DNA of 64,000 nt from positions 1-64,000 of the forward strand of contig CACILL010000001.1 of assembly GCA_902587545.1 (NCBI GenBank). Reading direction: 5' to 3'. Made by a program: the position numbers and the translations under genes. A model generated the notes under the pieces. That model was given only the letters and a program-made list of their open reading frames with translations, was not told where the DNA came from and did no database searches. Shown here in pieces: positions 2,857 through 3,012 of this stretch (the stretch's first letter is position 1; every line of letters starts with the position of its first letter). Source of the stretch: an uncultured SAR86 cluster bacterium (lineage in GTDB: Bacteria > Pseudomonadota > Gammaproteobacteria > Magnimaribacterales > AG-339-G14).

Positions 2857-2877
2857 GGTTTGTCTCCTATAAATATT

Positions 2878-2910
2878 AAAAAAAACCTGTTTGCTTTCGC
2901 TAAACAGGTT
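2878..2910 (-). terminator. Intrinsic terminator of the SAM-II leader
   Basis: On the minus strand, AACCTGTTT (2902-2910) pairs perfectly with AAACAGGTT (2884-2892) around an inner GC-GAAA-GC loop, and the stem runs into a U tract (As at 2878-2885 on the plus strand). It ends 22 bases before the metY ATG, so transcripts stopping here carry no coding sequence. The 5' arm and loop can instead pair with the 3' strand of the riboswitch aptamer, which would act as an antiterminator. Confidence 0.9.
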
Positions 2911-2916
2911 AAAAAG

Positions 2917-2970
2917 AATCCTTTTTAGCAAAGTTTATAAAGCGTTTGCAAGTCGGTTAAATCAACGCTA
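2917..2970 (-). promoter_or_regulatory. SAM-II riboswitch aptamer upstream of metY
   Basis: The metY leader read on the minus strand contains AGCGTTGATTTAACCGACTT followed by GCAAACGCT, a linker, and TTTGCTAAAAAGG. This matches the SAM-II consensus block by block: stem P1 (AGCGT with ACGCT), the invariant GATTTAACC loop, the pseudoknot in which GCAA pairs with the later TTGC, and the 3' CTAAAAAGG strand. SAM-II is a small H-type pseudoknot that binds S-adenosylmethionine and represses methionine genes. A possible -10 box TATATT lies at 2978-2983, placing the transcript start close to the 5' edge of P1. The aptamer sits directly before a terminator, so control here looks transcriptional. Confidence 0.92.
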
Positions 2971-3012
2971 TAAATGCAATATACACAAAAATATCAAAAA
3001 AGAGAAAAAAAA

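Follow-up and report, generated by a model that had tools for sequence, protein, structure and literature searches.

SAM-II riboswitches (Rfam RF00521, SAM_alpha) were described by Corbino et al. in 2005 as the metA element, which joins a helix P1 to a pseudoknot P2, carries a conserved core, precedes methionine genes, has a promoter directly 5' of P1 and, in many members, a terminator between P2 and the open reading frame (PMC1273637). Publications on SAM-II linked to a terminator date back to 2005-2007, and both this linkage and the presence of SAM-II in gammaproteobacteria are already published (PMC2258182, PMC2704228, PMC1273637); a 2014 survey recorded SAM_alpha solely in Rhizobiales and Rhodobacterales (PMC4239095). 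The alphaproteobacterial metZ SAM-II of S. meliloti, which has been studied experimentally, yields a terminated sRNA that is up at high SAM (PMC9373788). Another alphaproteobacterium, Candidatus Pelagibacter ubique, carries SAM-II before met genes, as well as SAM-V (PMC2704228). In the open-licence literature, we found no publication on SAM-II in SAR86.

The locus analyzed here, within a window of 64,000 nucleotides (the whole stretch of DNA that was studied), closely resembles the metA element in its P1, P2, core and methionine gene, in the position of its inferred promoter and in that of its terminator. It differs from RF00521 members in being AT-rich, in scoring 33.9 bits where the cut-off is 36, and in its host, which, as the preliminary description had proposed, is a gammaproteobacterium, of the SAR86 cluster. 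Like the S. meliloti metZ element, it is predicted to terminate transcription upon SAM binding. The genome is marine and streamlined, as is that of P. ubique; the SAM-V model RF01826, in contrast, found no match in it, in a search run without a genome as positive control. The leader occupies the minus strand of a 156-base intergenic stretch, from which metY (ATG 2856) runs leftward and a divergent enoyl-CoA-hydratase-like gene (ATG 3013) runs rightward, and the metY identity suggested earlier is borne out by TIGR01326 (597.2 bits, cut-off 495.1). We consider it highly likely that metY is controlled in this organism by a SAM-II riboswitch whose platform switches transcription off, which would provide a readable methionine switch for an uncultured, abundant marine lineage.

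Table 1. Elements of the metY leader in the window, and tandem copies of the SAM-II-like subtype in other SAR86 genomes.
Feature	Position	Strand	Basis or remark
metY, O-acetylhomoserine/O-acetylserine sulfhydrylase, 435 aa	1549..2856	-	PF01053; TIGR01326
metY Shine-Dalgarno AGGAG, outside terminator and aptamer	2864..2868	-	sequence
Terminator U8 tract	2878..2885	-	two U at its start are also paired, with AA 2910-2909
Intrinsic terminator hairpin AACCUGUUU-A-GC-GAAA-GC-AAACAGGUU	2884..2910	-	-13.0 kcal/mol
Terminator 5' arm CCUGUUUAGC, common to terminator and antiterminator	2899..2908	-	pairing, conservation
RF00521 SAM_alpha covariance-model match	2904..2978	-	33.9 bits
Aptamer 3' strand (tail) GCUAAAAAGG, 3' side of P2	2920..2929	-	GCUAAA conservation
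P1 3' strand AACGCU	2941..2946	-	pairs with 2969-2964
Loop L1 GAUUUAACCGACUUGCA, contributing the SAM-pocket strand and the 5' side of P2	2947..2963	-	conservation
P1 5' strand AGCGUU	2964..2969	-	pairs with 2946-2941
-10-like element TATATT, putative metY promoter	2978..2983	-	sequence reading, inference
Tandem subtype copies	L140:1337-1411 + 1445-1519; L141:1310-1384 + 1422-1496; G151:C66:12630 + 12742

Judged by sequence and covariation, the minus-strand segment 2969-2920 is a SAM-II aptamer, with SAM as its predicted ligand. The RF00521 match (E = 2e-6 in a 181-base search, 2.9e-6 over the whole genome) is the only one in this genome of 1.13 Mb, which is 85% complete. The covariance-model check proposed in the preliminary description has two sides: a match exists at a low E value, but it narrowly misses the gathering score of 36, and a default Rfam scan of the window therefore reports tRNAs only and no SAM-II. 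Relatives settle the assignment despite this score, since RF00521 matches occur in 33 of 40 genomes of the family, six of them scoring above 36, and in 109 of 199 genomes of the SAR86 order. The model for SAM-II long loop (RF01726) fits worse, with 22.9 bits against a cut-off of 44.

We aligned 41 SAR86 metY leaders; the named relatives are SAR86-cluster gammaproteobacteria whose MetY proteins are 80-99% identical. P1 shows compensatory, two-sided changes at three of its six pairs, while columns AUUU, C and UUGC of L1 are invariant and GCUAAA of the tail has zero changes in 40 leaders. In P2, pair C25-G61 is invariant, and C26-G60 becomes U-A in five leaders and is unpaired in nine. Taken together, P1, P2 and the terminator pair in 97.3% of cells, with two-sided changes at five pairs (55 cells, compared to a shuffled mean of 16.4). 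For the window itself, the fold of the complete leader has z = -2.29. The match to the conserved SAM-II blocks reported earlier holds, with GAUUU, UUGC and GCUAA as invariant columns.

The terminator consists of nine pairs, a bulged A (2901), two pairs and a GAAA loop, followed by the U8 tract. It had been called perfect; it is indeed strong, its folding energy being equalled by only 1 of 5000 dinucleotide shuffles, but the bulge makes it less than perfect. Among the 41 leaders the U run is always kept (41/41), 97.9% of counted terminator cells pair, and pair 86-100 is seen as U-A, U-G and C-G. The arrangement of aptamer, terminator and metY recurs in about 50 SAR86 genomes.

The aptamer 3' strand GCUAAANAGG is complementary to the terminator 5' arm, tail 2929-2920 pairing with arm 2908-2899. 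The strings quoted in the preliminary description are found as stated: TTTGCTAAA at 2932-2924 faces TTTAGCGAA at 2904-2896 (minus strand in both cases); the nine pairs include one G-U, and AGG/CCU lengthens the duplex. This tail-platform duplex (-13.2 kcal/mol) is equalled by 25 of 5000 dinucleotide shuffles. Across the 41 leaders, the antiterminator is paired in 92.7% of its cells, as opposed to 20-53% when the strands are slid by one to three columns. Two-sided changes of this pairing are absent within SAR86 because the aptamer strand is invariant. Across the class, however, the tail fits its own arm better than swapped ones (-13.3 versus -12.6 kcal/mol, 1 of 2000 permutations) in 55 other leaders of the GTDB class with a recognisable terminator, which share ancestry, so that this figure is not a clean probability. 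The antiterminator pairing suggested earlier is thus conserved in SAR86 and own-partner-specific class-wide.

Folding with and without the pseudoknot constraint agreed with the predicted switch. In the free transcript of the window ending at 2896-2888, and with P1 included, the antiterminator is predicted with P = 0.94-0.95 (about 0.95 when the end lies in the terminator loop). Masking the tail, to mimic its engagement in the pseudoknot, leaves no antiterminator, and the complete hairpin reaches P = 0.99-1.00. The same outcome was obtained at the truncated-transcript stage for 54 of 56 leaders. At equilibrium the full-length leader of the window favours the terminator (-21.5 versus -16.5 kcal/mol for the antiterminator), partly because of the A2923-G2905 mismatch, a position occupied by C-G or U-G in 34 of 41 leaders; many leaders of relatives are nearly balanced between the two folds. 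Owing to this equilibrium preference, the free state would have to act kinetically, and read-through would need kinetic trapping.

Conservation of the arm is consistent with its double use. In L015-L023 (nine leaders) and L068, AG(C/U) is retained within the terminator loop even though the terminator no longer pairs it, as expected if it served the antiterminator. Parsimony gives 5 changes in the terminator 5' arm and 11 in the 3' arm (P = 0.13, not significant alone), an asymmetry that agrees with an antiterminator role only as support. We rejected it as proof of dual pairing since the initial contrast of 2 against about 12-16 changes, obtained with a 43-leader set lacking the L015-L023/L068 clade and placing L045 wrongly, shrank to these values. 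In all, a mutually exclusive antiterminator that uses the aptamer strand is well supported by computation.

These pairings suggest how metY is very probably shut off by early transcription end upon SAM sensing. When SAM is scarce, the tail would pair with the terminator 5' arm as soon as the latter is transcribed, and with the antiterminator formed, polymerase would proceed into metY. With SAM bound, the tail would be locked in P2 and the arm left free, allowing the hairpin and its U8 tract to form and transcription to end before metY. None of the 40 family genomes has MetJ (PF01340), for which the E. coli control was positive; this absence leaves room for an RNA regulator.

Of the competing explanations, the one that retains most weight, while still improbable, is that a SAM-II aptamer is followed by a constitutive, SAM-independent terminator that merely limits metY expression or makes an sRNA. 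The S. meliloti metA terminator offers a precedent (PMC9373788), and the terminator does win at equilibrium in the genome of the window. Against it stand the complementarity of some ten bases that SAR86 shows between the arm and the aptamer 3' strand, the own-partner specificity of tail and arm in the class, and the dominance of the antiterminator before the 3' arm emerges.

It is considerably less probable that SAM binding conceals the metY ribosome-binding site: AGGAG lies 3' of the U tract and is part of no predicted helix, and relatives keep a strong terminator. Other SAM-II switches, among them that of the Sargasso Sea, are nevertheless known to act on translation (PMC9373788), and the terminator is missing in some metY leaders of SAR86 family f3. 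Least probable of all, by a small step, is that the aptamer drifted to another ligand or lost binding. Its low GC content and its RF00521 score under the cut-off would fit such a drift, but blocks GAUUU, CC, UUGC, GCUAAA and AGG are intact in the window and conserved in relatives, comparable scores are found at many other SAR86 sites, and the gene downstream is metY. SAM-dependent termination remains our preferred reading.

The metY promoter was read from the sequence. A -10-like element is kept in relatives as TATATT, TATCAT, TATTAT or TATAAT and would place the transcription start at about 2972-2970, directly 5' of P1. No good -35 candidate was seen in the genome of the window, and a promoter scan gave no site at its threshold. 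A mechanically called metY open reading frame extends further 5' (2857-2931 in the window, minus strand); its TTG start codon at 2931 falls within the aptamer tail, and it reads through the terminator. We rejected this longer frame, which crosses the terminator and the tail and is closed in relatives with another U-tract length; ATG 2856 is therefore taken as the metY start. Gene callers could misplace the start at TTG 2931.

The preliminary description had regarded SAM-II as unusual for a gammaproteobacterial genome, and this view has to be abandoned. In addition to the SAR86-order matches and the published cases, RF00521 matches (E up to 1e-3) were found in 118 of 369 genomes drawn evenly from the GTDB class Gammaproteobacteria, in which the former beta-proteobacteria are now placed; many of these matches lie about 70-190 bases 5' of a MetY/MetZ homologue. 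SAM-II in a gammaproteobacterial host is not surprising, being common in the class; the 2014 survey may explain the earlier impression of rarity.

The tail and terminator-arm design is shared across Gammaproteobacteria, and the window otherwise represents an expected use of a known switch. Other leaders of the class, mostly 5' of metZ-like genes, carry the tail GCUAAAG(C/A)GG and the terminator arm CCUGCUUUAGC. Their arm ACCUGCUUUAGC complements tail GCUAAAGAGGU, the same design as ACCUGUUUAGC in the window; they differ in being GC-richer and in preceding metZ or a close paralogue, whereas the gene here is metY. An arm that complements the SAM-II tail is widespread before metZ-like genes (L262-L321, L173, L175, L176 and L178), and the Rfam RF00521 model ends 5' of it.

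Among SAR86 relatives, canonical SAM-II with a terminator also precedes metX (L149, L122) and metB/metC-like genes (L111, L144), names that were read from translations and not all run against profile libraries. Four metY leaders of family f3 (L150, L155, L156 and L119) have a SAM-II aptamer and no recognisable terminator, so the SAM-II platform seems, from these leaders, to have changed within SAR86.

In the MetY tree, the SAR86 proteins cluster with those of marine alphaproteobacteria (100/100) to the exclusion of 26 other MetYs of the class, and their closest counterparts outside SAR86 are those of L053-L056 (65-66%); metY has thus probably moved between lineages. All of these marine alphaproteobacterial metY leaders also have SAM-II and a terminator, but their platform differs (tail AGGUGGU, arm ACCACC), with the same logic in another sequence. 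As the SAR86 metY platform resembles gammaproteobacterial metZ leaders, not alphaproteobacterial ones, we do not claim that metY came from marine alphaproteobacteria together with its riboswitch.

An exact-pattern search identified a highly conserved SAM-II-like subtype of near-identical copies, AUCGURAUUUG(A/G)UCCUAUUGC...GCUAAAACGG, at 64 sites spread over 53 of the 199 SAR86-order genomes and in none of 399 genomes sampled across the phylum; there is none in the window's own genome. It scores about 25-34 bits with RF00521 and is usually followed by AA...UUCC(C)AGGAUUUAA, with no terminator. The genes downstream are mostly homocysteine S-methyltransferases (PF02574) and metH; others encode AlkB-like desaturases (PF00487), TonB receptors and lipoproteins. 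In the 3' extension GGAA and UUCC could pair in most copies, but in the metH leaders they abut (GGAAUUCC), leaving no loop. It is conceivable, though we lean slightly against it, that these MetJ-less genomes have a two-part SAM-II system, namely the terminator type at metY and the SAR86-restricted subtype AUCGUGAUUUGAUCCUAUUGC...GCUAAAACGGAA...UUCCCAGGAUUUAA. If so, the extra 3' module of the subtype would constitute a SAM-II expression platform of a new type.

Subtype loci include L132, L140, L141, L151 and L154, with extension UUCCCAGGAUUUAA. In three genomes of one genus, tandem copies 108-112 bases apart lie 5' of an AlkB-like desaturase gene (PF00487), and this tandem form merits its own study. 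On a GC-rich IMG/VR contig (L322:8190-8260), exact SAM-II core words directly overlap the Shine-Dalgarno sequence and ATG of an unknown open reading frame; P1 is weak there, and the element was rejected as it has no RF00521 match. At five further loci (L142_2981, L143_1735, L145, L163 and L138), canonical SAM-II is followed by a conserved RNA-like stretch, CATCAAGAGTAGAG...CTCTCGCCAACCTG...AAGGTGG, 5' of an OmpW-family gene (PF03922), which from its sequence looks like a second structured leader element.
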